Positions 38,450-56,094 of a DNA stretch of 64,000 bases are shown piece by piece. The DNA is from Porphyra umbilicalis (lineage: Eukaryota; Rhodophyta; Bangiophyceae; Bangiales; Bangiaceae): NCBI GenBank assembly GCA_002049455.2, contig KV918988.1, positions 1-64,000 on the forward strand. The letters run 5' to 3'. Numbering within the stretch: the stretch's first letter is position 1; each line of letters begins with the position of its first letter. Made by a program: the position numbers and the translations under genes. The notes beneath the pieces were generated by a model. It worked only from the letters and a program-made list of their open reading frames with translations. It did not search any database and had not been told where the DNA came from.

Positions 38450-39845
38450 GTGTCCATTCTACTGCACGCGAGGCTCAAATGAGCCTCAGATGAGGCTCAA
38501 ATGAGACTCCCTCTCATATGGCCTGGAAACGCGGCCTTTTGGGGGTGTCTGAGGCACCCCCTCCGAGTTTTCATCGTACACAGCCGCCGAGTTGGCCCAT
38601 AGGTAAGTGGACTGCGCTGAGTCCAGATCTATTGCTGATCCCCGAATTTTGTCCTGGGGGACAGAGACGGGGACTGACTCTGAACAAGAGCACTCTATTG
38701 GTTTGAAACGACAGTAAGAAGGCATCGAAGCCAATAGAAAGCCCGCGTTCGGAGCCGGGACCTTGCATCCGTCAGAACTCACTGTTTGTTGCCGCTTGAT
38801 TCGCATTTCTTGGCACGGAGCAACACTGTGGGCCGGAATATGAAATTTAGAGCAGTACGACAGAAAAAGATCTCCAAATATTAAGGAAGTATCTTTCGAA
38901 AGTGTAGACGGATATCCCAGAAGATGTACTGAAGAACTTCTTTCATTTGATCTGGTACACGTCCGCCGGATTGTCCCGGCGCCCATGAAATACGGTTCCA
39001 TGAGCTATCCCAGGGATCGTCCTGACGAGAGAGAAGAACGATTCCGAGGAAAACACAAGATACTATCATCGGCGCGATCCTCAAGAAAGATATCTGGAAA
39101 ACGTACCATCGTGTTTCCCCGCATGTTGTGCGGCATGCTTTCTGCGGCCATTTTGTGACAGGAATGAAGGACACACACGGAAACAGCTCCTGCGCACATG
39201 TAGCGGATGGCTCCCAGACTGTTACGCATATTGTTTTTTGGGGATTATTTTCTGTCTGGTACGTGCGGTCTTCTCCAGAGACGATACGGCGGACAGCCTG
39301 ATTTCTGGGATGCCAATCGCCCGCGATGGCTTCTCTATGTAATGTTGTTCGGTCCTCCTCCCGTATTTGCTGTAAAATCACACTGCAGGTAATTTCTGCG
39401 GCCAACCTACACGACTGCGTGCGGCATATTCTCTGATTTATAAGCCGTACGACCTATTGAGCATGCCTTTCAGCAGTGCCGTGGGGTCGTACCGCGAGTG
39501 ACACACTGGAAAGCCTTGCTATGTTTTGCTCGGTTTTTTCCATACACGAGCCGTGCGGTTTCCTCGGAAATCTTCTGGGGTGCGCTCGCGAAGAACATTG
39601 GAGAGATGGCCTTGGGACCTATTCTTTGTTTTTTCTTGGAGCGCATCGTACCAGATGCGCCTCCAACATTTAAGAAGGAAAGAAAACGCGGAGACGTGGA
39701 ACAATGGTTTTACCTCTCAGCGCGGAAAGCAGTGAAAAGAAACAAACGCACACTATAGGAACAATCAACAATCAAAAGAGACCGCCTTCCCAGAGGGTGG
39801 TCGCCAATAACTGCTGCACGCCAGTCGGCACATCAATAGGCACGT
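38450..39845. other. left subterminal region of the 17.6-kb element
   Basis: Contains the outer and inner inverted repeats. Two minus-strand frames (38486-39001, 38881-39405) are open for 170 codons each but have no recognisable domain and overlap, so I do not call them genes. Confidence 0.5.
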
Positions 39846-40889
39846 TCAGTCGGCCTCTTCGTCAGACAAGTCAACGTCCCGCACTTCGAGGTCCTTCAGT
39901 TCATTGTGCATGGACTGAACTATGGCCTTGCGTGCTTCTGCGCTTTCGGGTCGCAGGTACTTGGGATAATCATTCGCTTCGATGTAGCCCTTCAGGCACA
40001 GCGCACCCGCCGTCCGTACTGAGGTCCACACCTCGCTTGGCTCCATCAGGAGCAGCTCGGCAATGATCCCAGCCGCTGTCCGAGAAAGGTCCAAACGACG
40101 CTTCGTCCTTGTGTCGCCCTCCTTGAGAATCAACTGGTAGCCGATGGTACTGTCCTGTGCGAGTGGGTCGGAGAAGCCATCGTCTGCCCCTCCCCCAGCA
40201 GTGGATGCTGGCGTCGACACAACGCGCTCGATCGAGGCACGCTCCACTTCCGAGTCCATGTAGACACCCAGAGTTCTGTAACCAAGCAGTCGGGCAGAGT
40301 TTCGGCGGCGGTTCACCTTGTACCGAATAGACTTTAGAAGGGACGTGGTGACTTCGCGTCGCTTACTGGACAGATTGGCTGCTTCGTAGTTGATCTGAGA
40401 AGCCGCCTTCTCCACGGTCCTCTGTATCAGCATGCGTAGGTAGCGATTCCCGTCCTTGTTAGGGCCGTGCAAGTGCCCAGTGGGCACCATCCAGGAGATG
40501 CAGTCGAGTTCGCAGGCGCCCCCATTGGGTGCAGTACTGGCAGAGTCGGATGCATTGGCAGGGGTGGCGCCCATCCTACTGATCTTGCGCAGCTGTGCCT
40601 GCCCGTACTTCATGAAAATGGAGCATACTGCGTCCTGTGCTCAAGCCACATGGACGATGGTCAATCAGGTAACCACGAGGAGCGTTAGAAGCCGCGTGGA
40701 AGTAAAAGACGCTTCACATCGTTCGTCTTCATCTCAAGCGCCCCACTTTTCCTCGTGACTGCCTCGCTCCGGCCACCAACGTACCCCGTAATCGTTCCAC
40801 ATTGACGCATGAAAAGCGCGTGCCGTACCGTCCCTGTCGGGAGTGGATGTAGGCGTCACCAAACTGGCTCCACTGTCATCGCTCGCCAT
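39846..40889 (-). CDS. two-exon accessory gene of the large transposon, function unknown
   Basis: Exon 1 is 40785-40889, from ATG 40887-40889. Exon 2 is 39846-40634. The 150-nt intron 40635-40784 has GTACGT at the donor and GCACAG at the acceptor, and splicing joins the frames (FHASMWNDYG to DAVCSIFMKYG). The product is about 297 residues with a Ser/Thr-rich N-terminus, a basic helical region (SSKRREVTTSLLKSIRYKVN), a Leu-rich segment (TAAGIIAELLLM) and an acidic C-terminus (DLEVRDVDLSDEEAD). I do not recognise the family. By position it could play the role that TNPA-like DNA-binding proteins play in CACTA elements; that is inference. Confidence 0.55.
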
Positions 40890-41639
40890 ACTGGACGCAG
40901 TGAGTGCGAATTTTTGCACAGAGCAAGGAGAACGATGAGCACAGGGGGGTTGATAGTCTACTGATCCCCGATCGGTGTGACGCACCGCATGTCGATGGCC
41001 GGCATGCTGCAGCAGAGGCATGCCTGCAGAGACATCCCACAGCGAGGGAGGAACGAGAATGAATGAGAGATTGTCTGCCGGATAAGCGAGATCAGACGGG
41101 TTGATCGAGTAATGTACTTCCTACATCATCGAGGGAGCTGAGTGACATGTACTGAATTCCTAGACTATGATGGCCCCACACGACAACTGTGGAGCTTCTA
41201 TTTCGTGTACCTTTCGGATGCCTGTTACGAGCAGCGGAGGGGTAAAGACGCGGGTGCCACTTGAATTCAAATGTAAGAGAAAGAAGTACTGAGGACAAGT
41301 CGTCATCGGTTTGCTCGCAGAATTGTACTTATTCCACCCTCCAGCAGCAGCTGTCAGTCCGGCTGCAATGCACGTCCAACTGGATCTCCTGGTATCCGGT
41401 CAGATCCTGCGGCCGACGACTGCAGTGGTCGCGGCCGGTTGAGGCGGCGTTCGCCGCACACCTCGGCCGCACCCTTGCTGACCCCTACATCTGCAGGTCT
41501 GTGGCACGCGGTGGGGTGAACGGGCGCGGCACCGACGGAGCGCCCAGCGTGCTGACGCCGTCCTCTTCCCGCGTGCGCGCTTCCTCCCCCAGACGCACCT
41601 GCCTACCTGAACGCCGGTCACTGCAGCCCGGTGCCCTCG
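40890..41639. other. noncoding stretch inside the large transposon
   Basis: Probable promoter of the minus-strand gene, then sequence grading into the satellite. No supported gene. Confidence 0.4.
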
Positions 41640-43400
41640 AGGACCCCCGTGCTCATTTCTTCACACATCGTGCCCTGCAGCCGCCCACGCTCTTTGCACG
41701 CAGCGGGATCCCCGCTAGGGGTTCCCAGCTCGACACTGCAGCGAGGCGGGCAGGCCCTTGCGCGCCGACGCGGTCCGCAGCTGACCGCCCGACTCGGATG
41801 GTCGTCGCTCGGCGGCGGGGGTAACTACGGTGCGCGCGGCCGTCGCCCTCGCTCTTTTGCACGCAGCGGGTTCCCCGACCGGGGTTCCCAGCTCTGCACT
41901 GCAGCGGGGCGGGCAGGCCCTTGCGCGCTGCGGCCGCTCGCAGCGGACCGCCCCACGCGGGCGGTTGACGCTCGGCGGTGGGGGTGACTGTGGTGCGCCC
42001 AGTCCGTGCCCCCGCTCTTGGCACGCAGCGGGAGCGCCGATCCGGGCTCCTTGCTCGTCCCTGCAGCGGGGCGTACAGGCGCTGGTGCGCTGACGCGGCC
42101 CGCAGCGGACCGCCAAACTCGGGCGGTCGTCGCTCAGCGGCGGGGGTGACTGTGGTGCGTGCGGCCGCCGCCCCCGATCTTTGCACGCAGCGGGTTCCCC
42201 GATCGGGGTTCCAAGCTCTGCACTGGAGCGGGGCGGGCAGGCCCCAGCGCGCTGCGCCCGCTCGCAGCGGATCGTCCAACTCGCGCGGTTGACGCTTGGC
42301 GGTGGGGGTGCCTGTGGTGCGCCCGGTCGTTGCCCCGGCTCCTGGCACACAGCGGAAGCGCCGATCAGGGCTTCCTGCTCGACCCTGCAGCGGGGCAGGC
42401 AGGCGCTGGTGCGCTGAAGCCGCTCGCAGCGGACCGCCCTACTCGGGCGGTTGACGCTCGGCGGTGGGGGTGACTGTGGTGCGCCCAGTCCGTGCCCCTG
42501 CTCTTGGCACGCAGCGGGAGCGCCGATCCGGGCTCCTTGCTCGTCCCTGCAGCGGGGCGGACAGGTGCTGGCGCGCTGACGCCGCCCTCAGGGGGCCACC
42601 GAACTCAGACGAATGACGGTGGGCAGCGGACGTGTCTGTGACGCGTCCGGCCGTTTCCCCGGCCCTTTGCACGCAGCGGGTTCCCCGTTTGGGGTTCCCA
42701 GCTCTGCACTTCAGCGGGGCGGTCAGGCCGTTGCGTGCTGCGGCCGCTGGCGGCGCTGTTATCGGCGCTGCAGAGGGGCGTAAAGGCTTTGGCGCGCCGC
42801 CGCCGCCCGTAGCGGACCCTCAGACTCGGGGAGGTCACCGCTCGGCGGCGAGGTGAACGGTGGCGCTTCTGGCCGTCGCCCCTGCTCTGCGCCCGCAGCC
42901 GGTTCCCCGGGAGGGGTTGCGAGCTCGGCGCTGCAGCGGGGCGAAAAGGCCTTGGCGCGCCGCCGCCGCCCGCAGCGAACCCCCCAACTCGGAGGGGTCA
43001 CCGCTCGGCGGCGAGGCCGACTGTGGCGTGTTCGGCCGTCGCCCCTGCTCTGCGCCCGCAGCCGGTTCCCCGGTAGGGGTTCCGAGCTCGGCGTTGCAGC
43101 GGGGCGAAAAGGCCTTGGCGCGCCGCCGCCGCCCGCAGCGGACCCCCCAACTCGGAGGGGTCACCGCTCGGCGGCGAGGCCGACTGTGGCGTGTCCGGCC
43201 GTCGCCCCTGCTCTGCGCCCGCAGCCGGTTCCCCGGGAGGGGTTCCGAGCTCGGCGCTGCAGCGAGGCGAAAAGGCCTTGGCGCGCCGCCGCCGCCCGCA
43301 GCGGACCCCCCAACTCGGAGGGGTCACCGCTCGGCGGCGAGGCCGACTGCAGTGCTTTTTTCCGTCGCCTCTGCTATTCACGTGCACCGGGCTTCGCGAC
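41640..43400. repeat. satellite of about 160-163-bp units, about 11 copies
   Basis: Each unit contains a block like CTCTGCACGCAGCGGGTTCCCCG followed by CTGCAGCGGGGCG. The block begins near 41690, 41857, 42013, 42179, 42337, 42501, 42661, 42885, 43045 and 43206. The last three units start CTCGGCGGCGAG at 42841, 43004, 43167 and 43330, exactly 163 bp apart, and are nearly identical. 163 is not a multiple of three, and both strands are open by composition, so the long frames across it are not genes. Confidence 0.85.
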
Positions 43401-44089
43401 CGTGGCTTTTTGTGTGTTACTGCAGCGGGTGTAGCTCCTTCTCGGGCGCTTTGGGGGGCGGAACGACGTTGCTGGATCCCCTTGGTGAGCAATTAGCGGC
43501 GCAACGGCATATTGTGGCGCTGGCGCTGTCCACCCGTGTTGCACCCAGCAGACCTGCCACAGGAAGCGGCCTGGTCGGTAGCACGGCGGTCCCGGTCGGT
43601 CCACCATCCCGGCTGCGCCACGCGAGGGGCCACTTCAATCGGAGGACTTTCATTTGGAGCGCGGCTGGCTGTGGAATTACCAGCCGCCGGCGCGGTCATT
43701 GCACGCGGCCAGCGCGCCCCACGTCCTTACTGGCTCGACTTTGCAGCAGCCCGCGGCGCGAGTGCTACAGGTACTGGGGAACGAAAATTGGGGCCCATTC
43801 TTGGCAGCGCCGCTGGAGCCGGGGCGACGAGTGGCGCATCTGCGTTTTGCACGCTGCCGGTCACTTGCACGTGGCCTCTCTCCTTTTTTTGCAGCGGTCA
43901 GGGCACGCGCTCCACGCGACTGAGAGACGCAGAGAGCCACCCGGGCTAGGCGGCCAGGGTGGGAGACGCCGTTTGTGGCGCCCAAGCGCCCTTCATCTGA
44001 AGGGTCCCTGAACACTCCGTCGGCTGAATTAGAACGCAGTGGTCAGCTCTCACGGGCGACGCCCGTGTCGTTGCGCCCCCTTCAGAGCT
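43401..44089 (+). other. leader region of the Ulp1-like/JmjC frame, splice-acceptor-like sites
   Basis: No clear exon. Strong acceptor-like sequences occur at about 43410-43428 (TTTTTGTGTGTTACTGCAG) and 43878-43893 (CTCCTTTTTTTGCAG). A protein-like patch (WLWNYQPPARSLHAAS) lies at about 43660. Upstream exons of the large gene could sit here. Confidence 0.3.
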
Positions 44090-47000
44090 ATGCGGCGCAA
44101 GCACGGGTCTGGTCGCGGCGGCGCGAACGCGCCCGGTGGAGGGCCAGTATCCCGCGTGGTAGCCTCTTCCCCCGTGCCCCTCTCACCAGCGGCCGTGCTT
44201 GCCGCGGCACTTCATGCCACACGCATGGCAACGACGGCGCATGGGCCGTCACCGGCGCAGGTTGAAATGGTGCTAGCGGCTCTTGAGTTTTCTGCCCACG
44301 TGCCATCTCCCCCTGCTGATGTCCGTGACAGGCTTCTGGCTTGCCGACGCTCATGCGGCAGCTCGTCACTATTGGATGGCGTCCTTGCCGCTGCTGTAAG
44401 CAGCCTTGCCGGAGGCGTCGTGGACGCTGTCAAGAGGGAGGGAAAATTTGTGGTCATGGGGCTCAAGGCCCACGGATGCCGGGGCCACGACGACTCGCAG
44501 GTGGCGACGGCGCCTGTCACTATCGGCTCCCTTCCACGCGACGATATTGCCTCGTCAGCATGTTGTCCCGCTAAGCACGGGCCACCGCTGCATTGTGCCG
44601 AGTCACCCCCCCCCCCCAACCTTCGGAGTCCAACTTCTTTGGCAAAGGCAAAGGTGCTGCCCGTCCCCAAGCGTGGCGGATTGAGCTCCGACGGCCACGG
44701 TCGCCGTCTGAGCTCCGACGGCCGCAGTCGCCCTCTGAGCTCCGACGGCCGCGGTCGCCCTCTCCGCGGCGTCTGGGATGTCCCGACCGGCAGGTACCTC
44801 GGTTTTCTCGCCGCACACGGGACTACCCCACTTCCGGGGGGGCATCGAGACGTAGCCGCTCCTCATCCCCAGCACGGTCCCGGCAGCGAACGCGCTCCCC
44901 CGCTCGTCCTGACGGAGGCGCCAACATCTTGTGGTTTCCTTGTCGAACACTCGGGCACTTCAAGGCGCTGCCTTTGGACGGACAGGATATTGCATCGCTA
45001 GATGATGGCGCGCGTCTGTCGAGGAGGTTGGTCGACGGTGTTTTCCATTGGTTGCTGACACGTTTACGGGGAGCGTTGCCGACTGACGGTGGGCTGCGGG
45101 TAATGGCATCGACCGTGGCAGATTACGCGCCCCGCGCGGCGAGGGGGGACTTTGACAGCGCCAACCGGGGCGTCGAGGCCATGCGCCGGCACTCCGTCTT
45201 CTTTGCTGGCACGACCATTCTTCCCTTCATCCCAGGGTCATCATGGTCGGCTGTGATCATTCACGGCCTCAACGCCATCTTGCCGCGCATCCGGCATGCG
45301 ATGGGATTGGCGGTTGCGAATCCCAAGTCGACCGCCACGGCTGAAATGGTGGTCATTGTGTCGCAGCAGGACGAGGAAGCGTCGTACGACGAGGCCTGTA
45401 TTGCAGACCGCCCAATTTTGGCCGATCCGAACAGGAACACAAGCACAAGGGGGACGAGGACAAGAGTGCGAAGTACGGACTGACAGCCTTTAAGGACCAA
45501 ATCACAGTACATCTCAGGCTCTATTTTTGGAAACATCTGAGTGAGAATAGAGCTGTCAGAGAATTGATGAACGGGGGGCTGCCCTGGCTCCCCTTCTACG
45601 GGTGATTTGGTCCGAACATGACTCGAAAAGATCTGAAGGTCGCACAAGGTGCACCGCACTATTGTCGCAGTGCACGTCTCTCAGGCGATTCTGCCTGGAT
45701 CTGGCCTGTCTTGCGAGCTTCGGGGCCCCGGAGCCCGCATCTGATGCGGATCCGAGGCGGAACGCCCGACAAACGACGAGAAACGACGAGAAACGAAGGG
45801 AAACGACGGGACTGCGAGGGGGCCCGAATGACCTGGGTCGGGCCGCAGCACACGCCGACTGTCGGAAGGGGACCCTCTTTACAGCTCCACACCTGCTGAT
45901 TGGCTGGGACGCAAGATCCTTGCACATTTAATTCGGTCGCTGATTGGCTGTCCGTTGCTGCTCGCGCGTTGTCGTCTTCGTCTTCGCCGCGCTGCTGTCC
46001 CCCCCCCCAAGTGGCGCAACAGTTGGGATCATTGCTCACGCCCGGGCAAAAGAGGGGGAAAGACTACCCACGTAGCGGGAGAGTGACCAAAGAGGAAAAA
46101 AATGACGGCGCGTCTGCCTGTGTTGTTTTTGAGTGCGATCCAGTGCATGCGCAGATTTGACTCTTCACGCCCTCCCACCCCCACCGCCGCTGTCCACGCC
46201 GCCCGCCAGAACCCCCCACTGAGCGTGAACCAGAATGCCCCATGTTTCCCAGACGCGCCTACATGGACGGCGGACACAAACAAGGGAGGGGGGGGGGCAC
46301 ATGGACGACTCAAGCAGAGAGTACAGGCTGATGACACACCATGTTCACCACCGATGTCGCGCGCTACAGGGAAGGGGCAAAAATTTTCAACAAAAGCACA
46401 CAGAGACAAGCAGCACAGCATCAACGATCGCGCCTGTCGCCATGCAATGAGCACCCGTGCGCCCCCCCCCCCCTCCCCGCCCCCCCCCGAAAAGAGAAGC
46501 GGACCCCCTGGAGTGTGCGCGACCGACGCATACCTCCGTGAGACACCCTGTCCCAGCAAAAGGGCGACAGCTGCCCGCGATCGGCGGAGCGACGGGGGCG
46601 CCGGCGATAGTGACGGGCGGGGGCAAGCGGGGGGGGGGGTGGGGGGGTGCGGCGCAGCTGTCGGCACGACGGCGGCCGGGTCCGGCTCTTGTACCGGCTC
46701 CAGATTCAATTTAATTTACTCGCCGACTTGCTGTGAAACATGCCTGGATAAATGCGATATAAGTGCGGAGTTATCAAAAATGTTTGAAAACACATGAGTG
46801 CTTGTGTTCTTGTTCGGATCGGCCAAAATTGGGCGGTCTGCAATATCAATGGCATCTATCGCATCCTGGCAACAACGTTTGCCTATGTGCACATGAAGGG
46901 TAGGGGGGCTCGAAAGAACACGCTGGCGGTCGAGCGCATTCTTCGCGAGCTGCTCCCCATCGTGGAGCGCCGTCTTCCATACCCCACTAGCGCCTTCCGT

Positions 47001-48815
47001 GGGGGGGAGAACATCATTTCCTACCTTGCCTTTTATATTTCTGCGCATCCGACCGCAGCGGCCCGCTTGCGTTCGGCCGACAAGCTGTGGACGTTATCGG
47101 CAACCCTACCTGACGCGCGACAAGCAGTCCGCGACTTGGTGGCAGCGCAACGGCGGTTGGATCATGCAGCCGAGAACGAAGTCGCGGCAACATTGCTCTG
47201 CGGGGCCAAACTATTACGACAACGATCTACGTCTGACGACCATGGCGCCTCGGGCGGTACCCCACCAGCACCTCCAGGACCGGATGGTGGGGACCACCCC
47301 GAAAACAACCGGGCTGGTGATGGCGGCAGCGGCTCTGGCTCGCCGCCATGTGGCGGCGACAACCCACAAGACAGAGGCAGCGCCAAACAAGGCGTGCCCT
47401 CGATGAGAGCGTCGTCAGAAGGAGGACGCAGCGCGAAGGAAGCAGCTGGGTGTCGGCAAGGGCGCGAGGGCACGCCGCGCTCTGCTGGAATCGGTTCCGC
47501 GACTTGGTGCACGGAGGCCAGGAACGCGATCCCTCTGCTACGATCGACGGCCGACTCGCTACCTGGGGACCAGTGGTCCTGCATCCCTCATTGCTCACCA
47601 ACGGCATCGCGCAACGTGCCGCCCCGCACCGCCCGTCACACTCTGCTCCAACCGCGGCAGGCAGCTGACGGTTTCAAGGACGCCGGCGTCTGTCGGCGAG
47701 CAGGGGACAGTGGCGGCGTGACCGCTCACATTTCCGCCGTTGGTGTCATCGACGGCTCTTGCGGATGCAGCGGCAGCCGCAACGGCGTTGCGGTGCAGCG
47801 CAGGCCTCGCAGCCAACACCTTTCCAGGGACGTACAACAGCGCGTCCCCATCAACGCTTCGACGGCGAGTCCACGGTCAATTGCCCGGGTCCGCATGCTT
47901 CTTCCACGCCGCTCCCCCGTCCCGCCGGCATGTCCTCCACGCTCTTCAAGTCGAATCGCTCGCGGAGCGCCTCTGCTCAGCAAGGGATTCAGGTGCGTCC
48001 GCGCCTCGCGGAACGCCATGCTTGAAGATGCTGCATTCAAAGATGCGACCTCTGTCGCAGATGTAGTGCCGCAAGTCACGTGCTCGTGGAGACGATTAAA
48101 GCCGCATGACGGAGGTCATCCGTGTGATGTAGACAAGCACGTCGACTCTCAGCGTCGTGGAGAGTGGTATGTGCCGGATCCACAAGAGCTGGTGGACGAG
48201 CACAATCGACGGCAAGATCATGACGTCGACGACGTGCGCGGCAGTGCTGATGACAATGACCAGAATCAAGCATCTGTGAGTGGCAGATGGGGCGATAAAG
48301 CGGCCACGTATGTGGTGGATGCCGACAATAGCTACGTGGTGGAGATCAGTGACAGCGGGACGACGACAACCAGCATGAGCGTTGCCGCCTCGACGAGCAC
48401 CAACATCTACGATGGCGGCGTGGCCAGCGACTGCGAGGAAGACAGCCACAGCGACAGCATCGGATCTGACCGTTCCGCTGCCAGTGACACAACAAGGAGC
48501 ACTAGGACCGAAGACTCATCAAGCACCACCGGAAGCGGCGCCGCGACGGGGTATACGAGGAAGGACGGCTTGTACGTCCGGGGCGGTCGATCCGCCGCCG
48601 CCCTTCGCCAACGCTTGCGGACGCTCCGGTCATTCAGACCCTTTCCTCATCTTTTTTGCCAGGAAGCACAATCCAAAAGCACTGGGGTGCTCAGCGTCAC
48701 GGCGGGCAAGGTGTTCCCCGACGGCGACGTGTGTGAGGCTGTAAGGTCCGATGGCGAAGGCCGCTCGGATGAGTCGGTGGTGCTGGCGCATGGGGACGCC
48801 CACAAGGACGCCTGA
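44090..48815 (+). CDS. Ulp1-like (degenerate) region and Ser/Asp-rich region, interrupted by a transposon
   Basis: From ATG 44090 the frame runs to the C12 run at 44606-44617. After a one-base shift it continues with Arg-Ser repeats (RRPRSPSELRRPQSP). Then comes a domain resembling Ulp1/SENP cysteine proteases: LDGQDIASLDDGARLSRRLV, then TTILPFIPGSSWSAVIIHG. The usual catalytic His before Trp is Ser, and I see no DCG motif, so peptidase activity is doubtful. At 45401 a TA-flanked element interrupts; removing it and one TA joins SYDEAC to INGIYRILATTFAY in frame. The rest is Pro/Gly-, then Ser/Asp/Thr-rich. It ends at TGA 48813-48815, yet the same frame continues directly into the JmjC region, so both may be one protein of about 2,000 residues. 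Confidence 0.5.
45401..46843. mobile_element. 1443-bp TIR element nested in the Ulp1-like frame, TA duplication
   Basis: Terminal inverted repeats of about 46 bp start TTGCAGACCGCCCAATTTTG, with one or two mismatches. TA is at 45399-45400 and 46844-46845. The host reading frame is restored by removal. The core CCCAATTTTGGCCGAT is shared with the MITE at 3011-3182. Internal frames have no transposase signature; a short AAACGACGAG repeat lies near 45772-45812. Confidence 0.9.
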
Positions 48816-48929
48816 GAAAAGGCCGAGGAGTCTTCAGGTGTCGATACGGAAGAGGCAGTGCGAATTATTGCACGCGTGCCTCCTCCAGGGACGGCGGTAA
48901 CTACGACAGCGAAGGCCGCAAAGACCGTC

Positions 48930-51557
48930 ATGGTCAACAGTATCCGAGGCCGCTGGCGCCGGAATGGACGCACAACCTGTGAACCAACGGCTGAGGTGGC
49001 TGGCAGGAAGACACAACTTCCCTTCGAACGCTCTCGTTGCTGGGCGCGCCGACGCCGTCGCCAGATCACAGAATCACCTAGCGAAGAGTACCCCGACTTT
49101 ACTTTGGGACTTGCTTCTCTGGCGCCACATTCACATGGTGTCAAAGAGCATCACGTACGCGACCCCGAGCAGAGAGGTGGTGGTCGTGGGCGTCAAGGAA
49201 GCGCGCGGCTGGCGGCGGCCGACAAACCCGTGCTCGACGACCAGCGAGGTGGCGCGGCCGTGAACTTGGGCGTCAAGGGTGCGCGACAAGCCGGTCGCCT
49301 GCCTGCGTCCACCGACAATGCCGACACCAACGACGAGACTCTTGGCAGGGCGGTGCACTTGGGCGGCGATGGTGCGCGTCACGCCGGTCGCCTGCCGAAT
49401 ACGACCGACAATGCAAAGCTGAAGGACGTTCACGTCGGTGGGGGCGCGCATGGAGGCGGCAACGGTAGGCGTCGGGCCGGTCGGCAGCCGGCGGCGACCG
49501 CCAATGCCGACGTCGTCGACACGCAGTTCGTTCGTGGTGGGCATAGAGGCAGCAACTGTGGGCATCGGACCGGTCTGCAGCCGGCGGCGACCGCCACTGG
49601 TGGGATGCTCAACCGGGAGGTTGATAGTTCCGGCCAACGGGGTGGTGATGGTGGTCGCCAGGGGTGTGAACCGGAGCCAGCGTCCGTCAAGGGCAAGGAG
49701 GCCGGTGGCGAGCAACAGTGGTGCGGTGGCCAAGGTGAGCGTGATGCAGGTGATGGACGCCGAACTGGCGGTTCCAAGAGGCCTCGGGAGCGTCCCGTGC
49801 GATCCAAGTCCCCGGCGCCACCAGCGATGCAAGTGTCTGTCACGGATGTAAATTCCATTCCCACTTACGGCCTGCCGTACTTAATTCGCACAAATATGCC
49901 ATCGATAAAAAACTGCGGTGCTTACGTGTTCCGGATTGCTCCAAGCATTCAACCCCGCCCAAGTTCAATCCCGAATCGAACAAAAGTTGGGGTCGGAGTG
50001 CAGAGCTACCCTCAGCGACCCACTTGCGTTAGTTCGCAATTTATGGGCCGCCATGTGGCCCCGAAGTGCCCCGCCATGGATCTCGCTCAGGTCCTGCCAC
50101 AAGTTGGTGGTAAGTGGATGTCATTCGGACAGCTGAATAGAAAATCCCGCGCCAGCGCGAGAGCCCATCAGCAAGCGTATTCCGAATTGACACCACCACG
50201 CTTCCTGGCGACGATAAACGACCACAGTGCCACGAGACGGAAAGTGCGCGACTTGGAAGGGAGGGTAACATGGATGATGCCCCGATCGACGTCCAATCCC
50301 ATTGAGGTGTATTACGCAACTGATGTGGCCCCAGAGGACCTCGACGGCCTCGGAAGGAGCCGGGGGGACCCCGCCTGGACAGGTCAAGGGCAGTCACCAG
50401 CGGCCGGTGACCGTCTCGAAAGTCCTAGATTCCTCAACACGGGAGGCATGGCTCGCAGCATATCGAATTACGTGGGTATCAACACCAATCTGTGCTACCT
50501 GGGAACTGTTGGGTCCGTCTTTAACTGGCACAAGGAGGACAGCAACTTGCTCTCCGTCTCCTTCCTGGAGAGTGGTGCCAATAAGGTGTGGTGGTTTGTT
50601 CCCGAGAGTGAACACGACGCAGTTGAGAGGCCGTTGCTGGCCTTTATGGATCCTTGCGTCCTGAAGGCAGCCGGCATGAATGTCTGGAAGGTCCTCGAGC
50701 AGAAAGCCAGCAGTTTTCCTGCAACACTCTTCCTCAAGAACGGCATCCGCGTCTACTTCCACGAAATGCGCGTTGGGGACATGGTTGTCACAGGACCAGG
50801 GGGACTGCATGGCGGGTTCAATCGAGGAGTGAACCGAGCCTCAGCTGTCAGCAACGCATGCCTGGCGTGGTCCGAATTTGGGATAGCCCACGCGGCGGAG
50901 GCGCGAAGGAACCAGTGTCAAGTTCCGTTCCCGCTTGAGAAGCTGAGTGTGCTCTCGTGCCAGCTGCCTGTGGACGGTCGGTGGTGGTGGGGAAGCCCCG
51001 CTGTCTGGAGGGCATGCGATCCTGACGCATTTGCGAAAGACTTGCGCGTGCTTGTCACCTACCTATCTGAGCACGTCGCGGAAGTACTTTCGTGGCGAGC
51101 CTCGCCTGTGTCACACAGCTGGTTTGGATCCAGCTTGGAAGCCGTGAGCCTATCGGAAGCGTCAGTTCCCGTTAAGGAGTTCGTTGCGTCTCGGGCCGCA
51201 CAGACGGACTCTGAAGACCATCCCGATGGCAACCACACGGACACAACTGGAGACGGCGCGCTGTGCTTCTGCTGCGGCGCTGCAGCCTGGCTAACCGTTG
51301 TTGTGTGCCCTCGATGCATTGAGACGTACGAGCCAAGCAGCATAGCCCTTGCGCCCCTCTGCTGTTGGCGTTGCGCGTCCGACCAGTACTGGTCCGGCGA
51401 TTGGAACCTCACGGAGACTCCCTCCGCTGAGGAAAGGGACCAACACAGTCCATTGATGGTGTACCGCCTATTCGGGCGGGCGGCTCATGCTCTGCTCTCG
51501 AGGTTGAAGCTCCTTTTGCCAGGTGCAGGGCAAGAGCAGTGGCGGTATGGCGCATGA
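48930..51557 (+). CDS. JmjC-domain dioxygenase with N-terminal repeats and zinc-finger-like tail
   Basis: 875 codons from the first in-frame ATG at 48930. About 49200-49680 encodes five or six diverged 31-residue repeats (GVKGARQAGRLPASTDNA and relatives). The JmjC domain shows the iron-binding H-x-E in FNWHKEDSNLLSVSFLE (His codon 50529-50531) and the distal His in GPGGLHGGFNRGVNRA (50808-50810), with the expected WWFVPESEHDAVE and FHEMRVGDMVVTGPGG between. This matches Fe(II)/2-oxoglutarate demethylases of the KDM4/KDM5 kind (family knowledge). A Cys-rich tail (CFCCGAAAW, CPRCIE, CCWRC) resembles a C5HC2-type finger. The upstream TGA at 48813 is in the same frame with no other stop between, so the start could lie in the preceding gene. 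Convergent with the transposase gene. Confidence 0.85.
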   Translation: MVNSIRGRWRRNGRTTCEPTAEVAGRKTQLPFERSRCWARRRRRQITESPSEEYPDFTLGLASLAPHSHGVKEHHVRDPEQRGGGRGRQGSARLAAADKPVLDDQRGGAAVNLGVKGARQAGRLPASTDNADTNDETLGRAVHLGGDGARHAGRLPNTTDNAKLKDVHVGGGAHGGGNGRRRAGRQPAATANADVVDTQFVRGGHRGSNCGHRTGLQPAATATGGMLNREVDSSGQRGGDGGRQGCEPEPASVKGKEAGGEQQWCGGQGERDAGDGRRTGGSKRPRERPVRSKSPAPPAMQVSVTDVNSIPTYGLPYLIRTNMPSIKNCGAYVFRIAPSIQPRPSSIPNRTKVGVGVQSYPQRPTCVSSQFMGRHVAPKCPAMDLAQVLPQVGGKWMSFGQLNRKSRASARAHQQAYSELTPPRFLATINDHSATRRKVRDLEGRVTWMMPRSTSNPIEVYYATDVAPEDLDGLGRSRGDPAWTGQGQSPAAGDRLESPRFLNTGGMARSISNYVGINTNLCYLGTVGSVFNWHKEDSNLLSVSFLESGANKVWWFVPESEHDAVERPLLAFMDPCVLKAAGMNVWKVLEQKASSFPATLFLKNGIRVYFHEMRVGDMVVTGPGGLHGGFNRGVNRASAVSNACLAWSEFGIAHAAEARRNQCQVPFPLEKLSVLSCQLPVDGRWWWGSPAVWRACDPDAFAKDLRVLVTYLSEHVAEVLSWRASPVSHSWFGSSLEAVSLSEASVPVKEFVASRAAQTDSEDHPDGNHTDTTGDGALCFCCGAAAWLTVVVCPRCIETYEPSSIALAPLCCWRCASDQYWSGDWNLTETPSAEERDQHSPLMVYRLFGRAAHALLSRLKLLLPGAGQEQWRYGA

Positions 51558-51865
51558 GGTGGAACAGAATTGCTTTTGAAGCTATTGTTTTTCTTGTCTA
51601 CCTGCTTTTTTTTCAGGGAGCCGCTTCTTTCCTTGCATGTTGATCAATAGCTCTCTTGGAAGCCCATTATGCGGAACTCTTTAGCACCTCTTCTTTTCTG
51701 CCCCTCGCAAAGGGGTGTTGTGTGTTCAAGCATATGATATCGTTGGCCTCCTTGCGACAACCACACAAGAATAGTGTTTAACTACTACTGCTAGAAGATC
51801 CAATCTAGACAACAGGGCAAACATCGTACCAGCGCTGGTGTTGTCTGCCTGCAAATCCCTCGTCG
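51558..51865. other. gap between convergent JmjC and transposase genes
   Basis: About 300 bp of AT-richer sequence, presumably both 3' ends. A T-rich run is at 51608-51615. Confidence 0.5.
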
Positions 51866-54800
51866 CTAGCCGCACTTGAAGAGGAAGCCGGAGCGCTTGG
51901 AAAATAAGAGCCGGAGAGTTCCAATGGGCAAGACACATGCCAGCTCCGTGACTGCCTCCGCAGAAATGAGCTCCAAAACCTCTGGCGTGGCATTCAACAC
52001 CTCGGATGGTTGGCCGTTTGGTTCTGTGGTGTTCGTGTTTTGAAGGACCAAGCCGCACAGCAGAAGTGCAGCTTGTCATCAATAGACCCAATGAAGCGTA
52101 CGTGAAAGAAGCGCCCCTGTTGGTCACAAGCACCAATGTTCTCTTCTGTTGGCCGCACGTACACTGTACTTCCCGAGCGCACAGTGAACCTCTTCTTCTG
52201 GTTCCTCGCTGTCTTCCAGAAACGGAGGTCCACCCCAGCCCTGACATCCATCCACATTGACTCAGGAGCCTGTCCTTGAATCTGACGGCCTGCTCTCCAT
52301 AAAATGGCTTGCTCTGCTGCAGCAAACACACCGGCAGCCAGGCGATGCTGACTTACTGCCTTCATCAACGATCCCTTCTGATTGAGGAACCACGACCTGC
52401 ATAGGCCGTGCTTTTCGGGCTGTGACACGGCACGCGAGATGAGCTCTGCGTCTCGCCAATATTTCATCGAGTAGTCCGCGGAGTTGTGGCCATTGCTACG
52501 CAGAACTGCGTGCTTTGATACCTGATGGAACTTCTCAAGTATGAGCTCGCACATGGATGGCCCAAGCTGTATGAGGGAAAGAGACCGATAGATGAGCTCG
52601 AGGAAACGATGAACGGTCGGCTTCTCCCAACTTTTCCCAAACACTGAGAGTGATCTAATATCTTTCATCACCTGCTCTCCTAGGCGCTGCAGATCCTGCA
52701 CAGTTCACTTTGTCTTAACGGCATGCTCTCCGTCAGAGGCTATGCTAGGGTGGTAGAACAGAGTCGACGCAAATCCTCGTAGCGACAACAGTGCCCGGAG
52801 AAGTGCCGCTTGGTGCGGCACTGTAGTGCCGCCCCTGAATATGGATTCCAGCACTTTCGGAGTCACAGTAAGTAGGACGGCGTAGTCTGACATTGAGAGT
52901 GTCGTTCCCCCCATCTTCTCGGGCTCGAAGGTGGTCAAAACAGTGTACGTGGGTACATGTGCGGCACACGCTCGCACCTGTCGCACCAGGAGGTCCCGCT
53001 GGTCAACTGAGAGCGCGCCATAAGCCTCCTCGAGAAGCTGTGACGCCATGCCGTAGTATATGAGATGGGAAGGCGCTGCGATGACATGCTCATGTACATC
53101 AAAAGACCCAGGCCCTCTCCCCTCCGTCAACCGTGAAAAATCGTCACCAGCACCAACTGTCACGCCATTTAGCAGGAGGGCGCACTTCATAGCCGCTGTA
53201 GAAAGGTTCGGAGTTCCCTTGACTCTCGAAATGATGGCGGACGTGCGCTCCTGTATGCGAGCGAAGCGGACGTCTCTGACGTCGAACGTATCCACACTGC
53301 TCTTGGCCTGATCCCGTCGCTCCGTCCTCGTCTTTGGCTGGACAATGTCACAGCTAGTGCAGTGCTTGGTACCACTCGCTCCAACAGAGCTAGAGTACGT
53401 TGCAGCCATTGGAAAGTCAAACACTCCCATGCACGGAAAAACGTGTACAAGAACATCTTGCTTAGTGACAGCGTCATACACAACGACACCTTCTTTTGCG
53501 AGAGATATCAAGTCTTCAACAATGGCCTTAACGACTGGGCCGGCATCTGCTCGGGGAGGAAGGTATGCCAAAGGCCGCACGGAGTGCCTCCTGTTCTCCA
53601 GAGTAATGGACGCGTACGCACCTTACAGGCCCATGACGTTTCCTCGTCGGCGCTTGTGGACCGCGTACTCGTCACCATTCAACGATACATACACGGCGTA
53701 CGGATCCTTTTCCGGTACAGACAGTGACGGCTTCTCTGCCGCTTGTAGCAGCTTGAGAGGCTCTGACCCTGGCAGCAGGAACCACGCGCTGGGCTCTTCG
53801 CCATCAGGCTCCATTGGAGTTGCAGTGTACACACTTCCTGCCCGCACAAATCGGAGAGTGAATAAACCGCCCTCCGAGAAGCATTCCCGCAGATCAGGAG
53901 GGATCACAGAGTTCTCGCTCACCGTGAAAGATGCCATGAAGTCACCAACTCGAAGCGCGTCTGGTGGAGCATACGAGCCCGGGCTGATAGTGATTTGACC
54001 AAGCTCCGCGATGCCAGTGCTCTGCAGCGTTGCAGTGATCTGCTGCGATGCTGTGCAGTCGACAGTCGCAACACAACCGATCGTATACAGAGTGCCACCT
54101 AGCCGGAAGCCATTCCTAGCGTTAAAGTGTGATGGGCCCCGTGCGACAACTGTTTGAAAGAACTCCGTTGGGCGCTCGAGCGTTCCAAGTCGCGCGTCCC
54201 CAGACTGGTGGAAGAATGATGCGGTGGCACCGTCAGCGAAGTCTCTTTTCATGTGGTCGGAAAAAGGAGTGCAGAAGACGCTGCAATCTGGTCATCTGCG
54301 GGGCTCTTTGCCTTTTCCTTTAGGTACGTAGCGAGAGGTTCTCACCTCTTTAACGGGTGCAGCGAAAAGCATCATCTCCTTTCGGATCTTGTGGAGGCGG
54401 AAGCGTGAAGGCCACGGTTGCACGGGCTCGAAAGCGTTCTCTGCTTCACGCATGACGTCGTACTGTCTTTTAGAAACGCGGGAGCGACCAAAGAGATACC
54501 CGAAGCAGACAAACTCGCGACGCGAGTAGAAGCCGCCCGCGGGCTCCTCCTCGTCAGAAGAAAAGGCCATGTCTTCAGCTCCGCTCCAATCAGCCACGCC
54601 GTCCGACAAAGCCGATGTGTCTGAATCATCACCGCCCTCAGAGTCCGAATCGCTGCCACCCGATAAGGGGACGCCAACGGGGGTATGAAGGCCTGGGGCA
54701 TTCGTCGGATCTGTCCTGTATTCTTCGGCTGTACGAGTCTGGCGCGAACGACTGACTGCAGCACCACTATGCCCAGTAACCGCTCCCGCACCACGTTCTA

Positions 54801-54885
54801 AAGCTATGGGAGCGACATGAGGTAGAAGCGCATCACTGAAGTTGAAGTAGGCCGGTAGACGCTTTCGTCGCATATGGCTAGGCAT
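51866..54885 (-). pseudogene. TNP2/Plavaka-like DDE transposase with in-frame stops
   Basis: One reading frame from ATG 54885 to about 52040, then a one-base shift and a C-terminal piece to 51866; about 1,000 codons. In order: acidic Ser/Asp/Glu region; FGRSRVSKRQYDVMREAENA; the core VYVSLNGDEYAVHKRRRGNV, LAYLPPRADAGPVVKAIVED, KEGVVVYDAVTKQ, FDFPMAATYSSSVGASG then KHCTSCD, VHEHVIAAPSHLIYYGMA; and a C-terminal GPSMCELILEKFHQVSKHAV. These resemble CACTA/Plavaka TNP2-type transposases (recognition by pattern, moderate certainty). Stops interrupt the frame: TGA 54292, TAA 53623, TGA 52705. The TAA could be removed by a 36-nt GT-AG intron (53591-53626). Two TGAs are explicable as CpG decay of CGA. 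No indels occur over most of the gene, so it decayed recently or is recoded. Confidence 0.65.
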
Positions 54886-56094
54886 GGTGCCCTGGCGAGT
54901 GACTGAGTGGTAAGGAGGTACCTGGAGACGGTCGCAGGCGCAGGCAAGCGCACTGGCCTTAGCAGACCTCGAAACTGGGTAAGGCGACTTGGGACATCGC
55001 AAGCGAGGTGTGGTCGCTGCTCTACCGTGGCCATCTCCCGCTATAAGGTGCTGCCACCACCAGCACGCAAGAGATACTGTTCCCGGCTTTTGTTGAGGAA
55101 CATTCCAGTTGCAATATTTTTGTACTTGCCTAGCTCTCAGGTGCCTATATGTCTCTGAAGACACTTCGACGATCACTTCAGATGTTCACGTTTACGCCGC
55201 TACGTGAGCATGCTCGGGGATTGTGTCCAAGGGTATCCGACAGTACGCTTTGTTTTCATTTCTTTTAACAGTCGGCGAGACTGTCTCTTTTGTTCGCACA
55301 CTTACCGTCGCACAGGATTTCTCCGAGAGCACGACAGAGGCTCATTCTTGGGCCTACAACGGAAATATTCCGGAAAATATCTGGCGTTTTATCCTGCAGC
55401 CTGCCGCACGTTTATCCCGCAATCCTTCTCGGCGGCCATCCCAAGGCCTGTTTTCTTACCTTCGCGCAATCAGGCCTGTGGATGATTCGCTCGTCTATCC
55501 AACATGCGGCAAATGAGCGCTTCCGTGCGTCATCCGCAAATCCATTGGGAGAATGACCTGGCAATCGCGTCATCCCTAGTTTGGAATCTTCCAAGGGACT
55601 TCTCATTTGAACGATCCCATGCTTGTCTCAAACTCATCCAGGGATTTTTTCGAGGATGTCTCCCATCCCATCCTGACGTGAACCTGAGATCAACCTGGCC
55701 AAATCGTTCGGATGATCCCTCACCTATTTCAAAACGGGCTCCAGAACATTTTAAGGAAGAGGCCCCGTCCCACTGTGAAGCTGCCCACGCGAGATCTTGA
55801 GATTTTCTACTGTCTCCTCGACAGAAGTGCAGAAAAGAAGAGGAGCTGATGTTGATTTCCAGGCTGTATGGGCACATGTAAGCAATCAGGAGCACCAAGT
55901 CAGTCACAGGGGCGCATCTGATTGGTGGAGAGAGTCGGCCCACTAGTCAATCTCTGTCCACCAGGACAAAATTCGGGGATCAGCAATATTCCCAGAAAGA
56001 GCAGCCGAGGCCGGAACCTGGTCACAGAGAGGCATCAAAAATAGGCTCAAACGAGCCTGAGAGGCTCAAATGAGGCGGTTAGTAGAATGGACAC
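54886..56094. other. right subterminal region of the large transposon
   Basis: Transposase promoter side plus right-end inverted repeats (inner 55951-55987, outer 56081-56097). No other gene recognised. Confidence 0.5.

Follow-up and report, generated by a model that had tools for sequence, protein, structure and literature searches.

The window analyzed here, a 64,000-bp stretch of the genome of the red alga Porphyra umbilicalis (bases 1-64000 of contig KV918988.1, here C228), contains a 16,954-bp DNA transposon (positions 38824 to 55777) that carries a gene for a JmjC-type dioxygenase. Judged from its sequence, it belongs to a CACTA-type (CMCT-clade) DNA transposon family with three genes, and about 100 copies of this family carry the JmjC-type gene. 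This gene probably goes back to a single capture of a KDM4-like gene from the host that preceded the divergence of the subfamilies, and it has been retained as a functional component of the element; its product would be a histone demethylase that acts on the element itself. Many copies are broken, including the one in the window, which is degenerate, and copies with open frames exist elsewhere in the genome. The genome was searched as 83.8 Mb in 665 contigs, and the counts for large families are lower bounds throughout. Two of its light-harvesting proteins have their best match in PDB entry 7y5e, from the red alga Porphyridium.

An earlier note, made from the letters of the window, had recognized a JmjC domain within the element; this domain was recovered at positions 50493 to 50849 on the plus strand (PF02373, 60.2 bits against a cut-off of 24), with the iron-ligand motifs WHKED and LHGG. 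The assignment of the JmjC gene to the transposon was also borne out, as a convergent transposase gene accompanies it at most JmjC loci genome-wide. A search with the JmjC query gave 86 matches (51 of them stop-free, counted by inspection), which merged into 85 loci. The transposase gene is convergent and lies 1,071-3,150 bp downstream (median 1,136 bp) at 79 of these loci; four of the remaining six have it convergent at 6.5-11.5 kb, and two are arranged otherwise. The chance of the JmjC-transposase arrangement was ~0.3% per locus. The Pfam JmjC search of the genome yielded 105 matches, all above the cut-off. All Pfam JmjC matches together gave 106 loci, 96 of which have a convergent transposase within 16 kb downstream. 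The conserved N-terminal domain of the JmjC protein and the transposase were both present at 68 of the 106 loci, the transposase only at 28, the N-terminal domain only at two, and neither at eight. The recurring order is a divergent gene (gene A), a tandem array, a JmjC gene encoding the N-terminal domain, a repeat-rich linker, the JmjC domain and a Cys-rich end, and a convergent transposase gene.

Residue conservation and substitution rates were assessed at 30 JmjC loci, of which 24 are stop-free across the match. The first iron-binding histidine, the glutamate, the 2-oxoglutarate-binding lysine, and the tyrosine occur in all 24 stop-free copies, and the Fe(II) and 2-oxoglutarate residues are all kept in 22. 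Over 81 pairs with a synonymous divergence (dS) of 0.02-1.5, the median ratio of nonsynonymous to synonymous divergence (dN/dS) was 0.19, indicating purifying selection. Distances between JmjC genes followed those between the transposases (Mantel r = 0.94 for 24 loci and 0.93 without the window; p 1e-4). By these comparisons, the JmjC gene is more than a chance passenger of the transposon.

A tree of 24 transposon JmjC copies, three host genes, and the corresponding segments of Arabidopsis JMJ13 and of KDM4D placed the transposon copies in a single clade (support 100/100). The split that sets the host KDM4-like gene on C344 beside this clade received support of 95.8/94. The C344 gene shares with the transposon copies, by eye, the Cys-rich end and a serine at the position of an asparagine of KDM4 (Asn198 in KDM4A). 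The single clade and the adjoining C344 gene fit one capture from the host followed by long retention; the C344 gene is less likely to be a domesticated transposon copy because it falls outside the transposon clade. C263, C30, and C344, three of the eight loci with neither the N-terminal domain nor the transposase, have the top Pfam JmjC scores and look like host genes, and just ~4.8 kb of contig lies downstream of the C344 locus.

The stop-to-stop frames of the JmjC protein reach 2,018 amino acids in C288 and 2,570 amino acids in C16, and consist of a 260-amino-acid N-terminal domain, a long linker, the JmjC domain, and the Cys-rich end. The nearest solved sequences to the C288 protein were Arabidopsis JMJ13 (5e-19) and KDM4D (4.4e-18). 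The family shares with KDM4 and JMJ13 the JmjC core with its HxE...H motif and 2-oxoglutarate lysine, and differs from them by the serine in place of Asn198, the absence of a JmjN match, the extra N-terminal domain, the linker, and the Cys-rich end. No TET/JBP dioxygenase domain was reported when the frames of the window, C288, and C16 were scanned with Pfam. The Ulp1-like protease that the earlier note had seen in the same frame is without sequence support and was rejected at the sequence level, as these frames contained no C48 domain and had no such Pfam or PDB match.

In the window, the JmjC gene extends from 44090 to 51557 on the plus strand, its start being presumably the first ATG of a C288-like frame. 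Comparison with the open C288 frames reveals three lesions in it: the reading frame shifts near 44.6 kb, 1,443 bp are inserted, and an in-frame stop occurs at 48813-48815. A remnant of the N-terminal domain was located by domain alignment at positions 44980 to 45336 (plus strand), and the C-terminal Cys-rich stretch lies at 51264 to 51374 (plus strand). Eight cysteines of this stretch are kept in at least 22 of the 24 stop-free copies, and it is possibly a zinc site. The insertion at 45401 to 46843 is a nested element with inverted-repeat ends and a TA duplication that sits within the JmjC gene of the window, is absent from C288, and is not part of the transposon. Its 48-bp inverted-repeat ends start with TTGCAGACC and resemble the ends of a ~400-bp repeat described below.

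The earlier note had placed the ends of the element at 38450 and 56094, with a 17-bp outer and a 37-bp inner inverted repeat as its termini. Both inverted repeats are real and near-perfect; the outer one was present at its position, and the arms of the inner 37/38-bp one (38630-38667 and 55951-55988) are 97% complementary. They belong to two distinct short repeats nested about the transposon, which occupy 38450-38823 and 55778-56094. The outer repeat, 288 bp long and outside the transposon, is divided into a left half at 38450-38631 and a right half at 55989-56094 that are joined elsewhere. The second, whose whole length is ~400 bp, is divided into a left half at 38632-38823, with a TTGCTGATCC end, and a right half at 55780-55986. 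The final two bases of the left halves are the TA target of the outer interruption and the AA target of the inner one, with their duplicates at 55987-55988 and 55778-55779, respectively.

Empty copies of both repeats were found in the genome. The search with the outer ends scored 40 matches, including that of the window itself, among 115 candidates, and the halves of the 288-bp repeat were directly joined with nothing in between in all seven other loci read (L002-L008); the junction reads GATCTATTC in the six loci with printed sequence. The two sides of the second repeat were searched separately, and for each of them 40 of the more than 500 candidates were scored. At the 19 loci common to both, the halves overlapped at the junction by exactly 2 bp in 17 and by 10 and -1 bp in the other two. 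The empty ~400-bp copy in L004 reads GAGCAAGCTG / GAGCAAGCTGCC, and the occupied site in the window reads GAGC-AA-CACTGTGGG...CCCACTGTG-AA-GCTG, continuing on the right flank as AAGCTGCC. This comparison sets the transposon at 38824-55777, with an AA duplication and CACTGTGGG...CCCACTGTG termini. The end sequences named in the earlier note thus occur without the gene set, and the empty sites put the boundary elsewhere, which are the outcomes that the note itself had set as refuting its ends. What survives of its proposal is a transposon with other ends; further copies of the transposon terminate at positions equivalent to 38824 and 55777. The empty sites rule out that the transposon ends in the 17-bp or 37-bp repeat, and an element spanning 38450-56094 retains practically no probability. 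As read from these junctions, one spot took three successive insertions, the two short ones with TA-type targets.

The left 1 kb of the element was found at nine loci and the right 478 bp at seven, with the window counted in both. All four copies in which both flanks were read have 2-bp duplications (AA in the window, TC in C288, AA in C297, and GT in C204). The termini are CACTG and CTGTG in the window, C288, and C297, and degenerate ends were observed in C204, where the left end is CTCTG, and in C53, where the right end is without the final G. Right ends of C6, C8, C27, and C254 read CGCTGTG, and the pairs C6/C8 and C27/C254, from other subfamilies, share one ...AATCGCTGTG terminus, beyond which their flanks differ. 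The C6 copy (L049, C6:26400-33900) is left-truncated, its agreement with C8 beginning only within the JmjC gene and extending to the right. Apart from the shared left end, C288 differs from the window on the left because it carries an extra partial JmjC-type gene; this second gene (C288, ~73.2-77.2 kb; L042, L051) has its own N-terminal domain and lies upstream of the main one. C16 and C391 are still 99.9% identical at the edge of the compared stretch, where the right end was not reached, and may for this reason represent haplotypes or lie within a larger duplicated region.

The tnp2-like (CACTA/Plavaka-type) transposase, which the earlier note had seen in the element, is supported. Its frame lies at 51994 to 55185 on the minus strand, with in-frame stops at 54292, 53623, and 52705, and open frames of 1,058 and 986 amino acids occur in C288 and C16, respectively. 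The Pfam cut-off for tnp2 (PF02992, 28.6 bits) was passed by L076 only (33.7 bits). The window piece at 52705-53622 scored 25.8 bits, just below the cut-off, and C16 (26.6), C288 (24.6), and L074 (24.0) also fell below it, with E-values of 4e-6 to 2.5e-5 for these four; L075 matched only at an E-value between 0.01 and 1. The transposase matched profiles of the tnp2 type only, with no match to the MuDR type of VANDAL elements. CMCT-clade transposases have a DDE triad with C(2)C and H(3-4)H between the second D and the last E; here CTSC is invariant in all five aligned transposase rows, and histidines are present, with the H(3-4)H spacing not in all rows. The family shows the tnp2-type transposase, the CA..TG termini (CAC..GTG in EnSpm), and a duplication within the 2-5 bp range that are features of the CMCT clade. 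Both EnSpm/CACTA and Plavaka elements share with this family the tnp2-like transposase and, to judge by the CTSC, probably the C(2)C motif. EnSpm also has the CAC..GTG ends, and Plavaka duplications, at 2 or 3 bp, include the length seen here. EnSpm families described in PMC12730594 have 3-bp duplications, whereas those of this family are 2 bp, which separates it from EnSpm proper. Plavaka termini are TGT..ACA or CATCA..TGATG, in contrast to the CAC..GTG ends here. Relatives of the transposase were not confirmed in IMG/VR contigs, where two short patterns and 20 stretches were covered.

Gene A lies at 39849 to 40640 on the minus strand, encodes 264 amino acids, and reads toward the left end. 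It lies to the left of a satellite and corresponds to one frame of the two-exon gene proposed in the earlier note, and with 145 genome matches it is conserved. It was divergent and upstream at 71 of 96 loci with both JmjC and transposase (orientation controls, 7 and 3). Only 75 of 132 gene A loci have a JmjC locus, and elements or fragments with gene A only may form further subfamilies. The satellite itself was confirmed as a tandem array of 162/163-bp units at 41683 to 43349, between gene A and the JmjC gene. Arrays also occupy the interval between these two genes elsewhere, with units of 163 bp in C288, 164 bp in C16 and C391, and 197 bp in C8. The units of the three subfamilies are unlike one another (best cross-match, E 0.077). 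The JmjC genes of C16/C391 and of C8 themselves contain strong repeats, with periods that include 162 and 174 nt. The C288 and C16 linkers gave no BLASTP match at E 0.01, which is a weak comparison, and the C8 frame was uninformative in it because it had 15 stops.

Transposons are held down by chromatin marks. It is plausible that the element-encoded JmjC protein counters such silencing. After a host KDM4-like gene had been taken up, ahead of the divergence of the present subfamilies, and retained as a functioning part of the element, its product would act as a histone lysine demethylase on the element that encodes it, and the tandem array in the divergent promoter region may guide it there. 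Removal of a repressive mark (H3K27me or H3K9me, methylation of lysine 27 or 9 of histone H3) would allow the element genes to be expressed and the element to move. Tandem repeats in the target and repeat motifs in the protein, as in the VANC protein of Arabidopsis, suggest self-targeting of the JmjC protein to its own array. DNA methylation is an unlikely target of the enzyme, given the ratio of observed to expected CpG in the element (1.01, with no sign of 5-methylcytosine decay) and the substitutions between the window and C288 (130 transitions and 145 transversions, with 39 transitions in a CpG-type context). The same ratio was 0.60 and 0.68 in the two short repeats, which are small.

A number of observations weigh against the proposal of a captured, self-acting demethylase. 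The serine at the Asn198 position occurs in 24 of 24 stop-free copies, and the distal iron-binding histidine, kept in 22 of them, is Asp and Tyr in the other two. JmjN was not reported by Pfam for the frames of the window, C288, or C16. The 260-amino-acid N-terminal domain has no known relative, none having appeared in Pfam or PDB searches; gene A likewise has none, as Pfam gave no match for it and its best PDB match had an E-value of 0.56. The JmjC genes of the window and C288 show weak self-similarity (~70% over 257-297 bp) and a 27-bp unit repeated three times, and the proposed recognition of the array by the JmjC protein is drawn from position and analogy. Furthermore, JmjC is missing from the surrounding 16 kb at 23 of 119 transposase loci and from the surrounding 25 kb at 16 of 88 N-terminal-domain loci, and C297, which has both ends, gene A, and the transposase, gave no match in either JmjC search. 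The dN/dS values were higher, at 0.43-0.47, in the three closest pairs printed.

The conserved serine, together with the iron ligand lost in two copies, would accord with a JmjC protein that acts without histone demethylation, either by hydroxylating another protein (e.g., the transposase) or by opposing silencing non-enzymatically. The JmjC protein Epe1 is reported to have a non-enzymatic anti-silencing role (PMC7192584). On the other hand, the Fe and 2-oxoglutarate residues are intact in most copies and the host gene on C344 carries the same serine, and such a mode of action is considered unlikely, while deserving some weight. The sequence does not fix the substrate; H3K36 is another substrate of KDM4-type enzymes, as is H3K4 of related ones. 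The enzyme might then erase an activating mark (H3K4me or H3K36me) and damp the element or its neighborhood as a self-limiting device. A brake fits poorly with retention across subfamilies at high copy number, which leaves this explanation improbable. The transposase loci without a nearby JmjC gene and the complete C297 copy would suit a gene that is passively carried along, or that benefits the host, and plays no part in the life of the element. This is very improbable in view of the low median dN/dS, the fixed arrangement at 79 of 85 loci, and the co-divergence with the transposase. A working demethylase that acts on its own element remains the favored explanation. A broader version of it, in which each subfamily has its own promoter-side array and its own repeat-bearing JmjC protein that is attracted to this array, H3K27 or H3K9 demethylation of the element licenses mobilization, and both writer and eraser of the mark are mobile, is tentative, with the balance somewhat against it.

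Kojima (2025) listed TET/JBP, SET, and VANC among the silencing-related genes of transposons in the main text of PMC12730594, which contains no occurrence of "JmjC" or "Jumonji". Fungal TET/JBP elements, as treated in that text, are likewise DNA transposons, including CMCT lineages, and encode a 2-oxoglutarate/Fe(II) dioxygenase that presumably reverses silencing. They differ in that TET/JBP acts on 5-methylcytosine and the hosts are fungi, whereas the enzyme here is a JmjC protein (KDM4/JMJ13-like) in a red alga. Phytophthora HarbingerS and MuDR elements with SET histone methyltransferase genes (cited in PMC12730594) also provide a transposon-borne histone modifier; these belong to other superfamilies and encode a writer, in contrast to the candidate eraser here. 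The Arabidopsis VANDAL/VANC system (PMC5735166) is similar in that an element protein is combined with tandem repeats in the DNA and tandem peptide motifs in variable protein parts, and VANC keeps its own VANDAL family open. VANC affects the DNA-methylation state by an unknown route, VANDAL elements are MuDR-type whereas this family is tnp2-type, and repeat recognition has been shown for VANC (PMC5735166) and is proposed here. Transposons with TET, SET, or VANC are known. No description of a JmjC-coding transposon was found in the open-access literature, as judged by titles and the starts of abstracts, with closed-access work and bioRxiv outside this scope; four papers mention JmjC, CACTA, and transposase together.

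A preSET_CXC profile search for Polycomb machinery in the same genome gave 76 matches above the Pfam cut-off on 69 contigs. All 76 loci are more than 10 kb away from the JmjC and transposase matches listed for the transposon family. The only CXC locus read (L082, C228:112800-115700, outside the window) encodes CXC and SET domains and is nearest to EZH1/EZH2 (7.2e-41). A total of 76 E(z)-type CXC loci is far above the usual need of a host, and the loci may therefore represent another mobile family, one that carries a histone methyltransferase. If true, both the writer and the eraser of a silencing mark would have been taken up by mobile DNA.

Trimethylation of H3K27 (H3K27me3) is reported on ~50% of the repetitive elements of the red alga C. 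merolae (PMC5405695). A multi-copy, selected JmjC gene of single origin in a mobile element would allow a direct test of whether transposons erase histone silencing marks, in a lineage with reported H3K27me3 on repeats.

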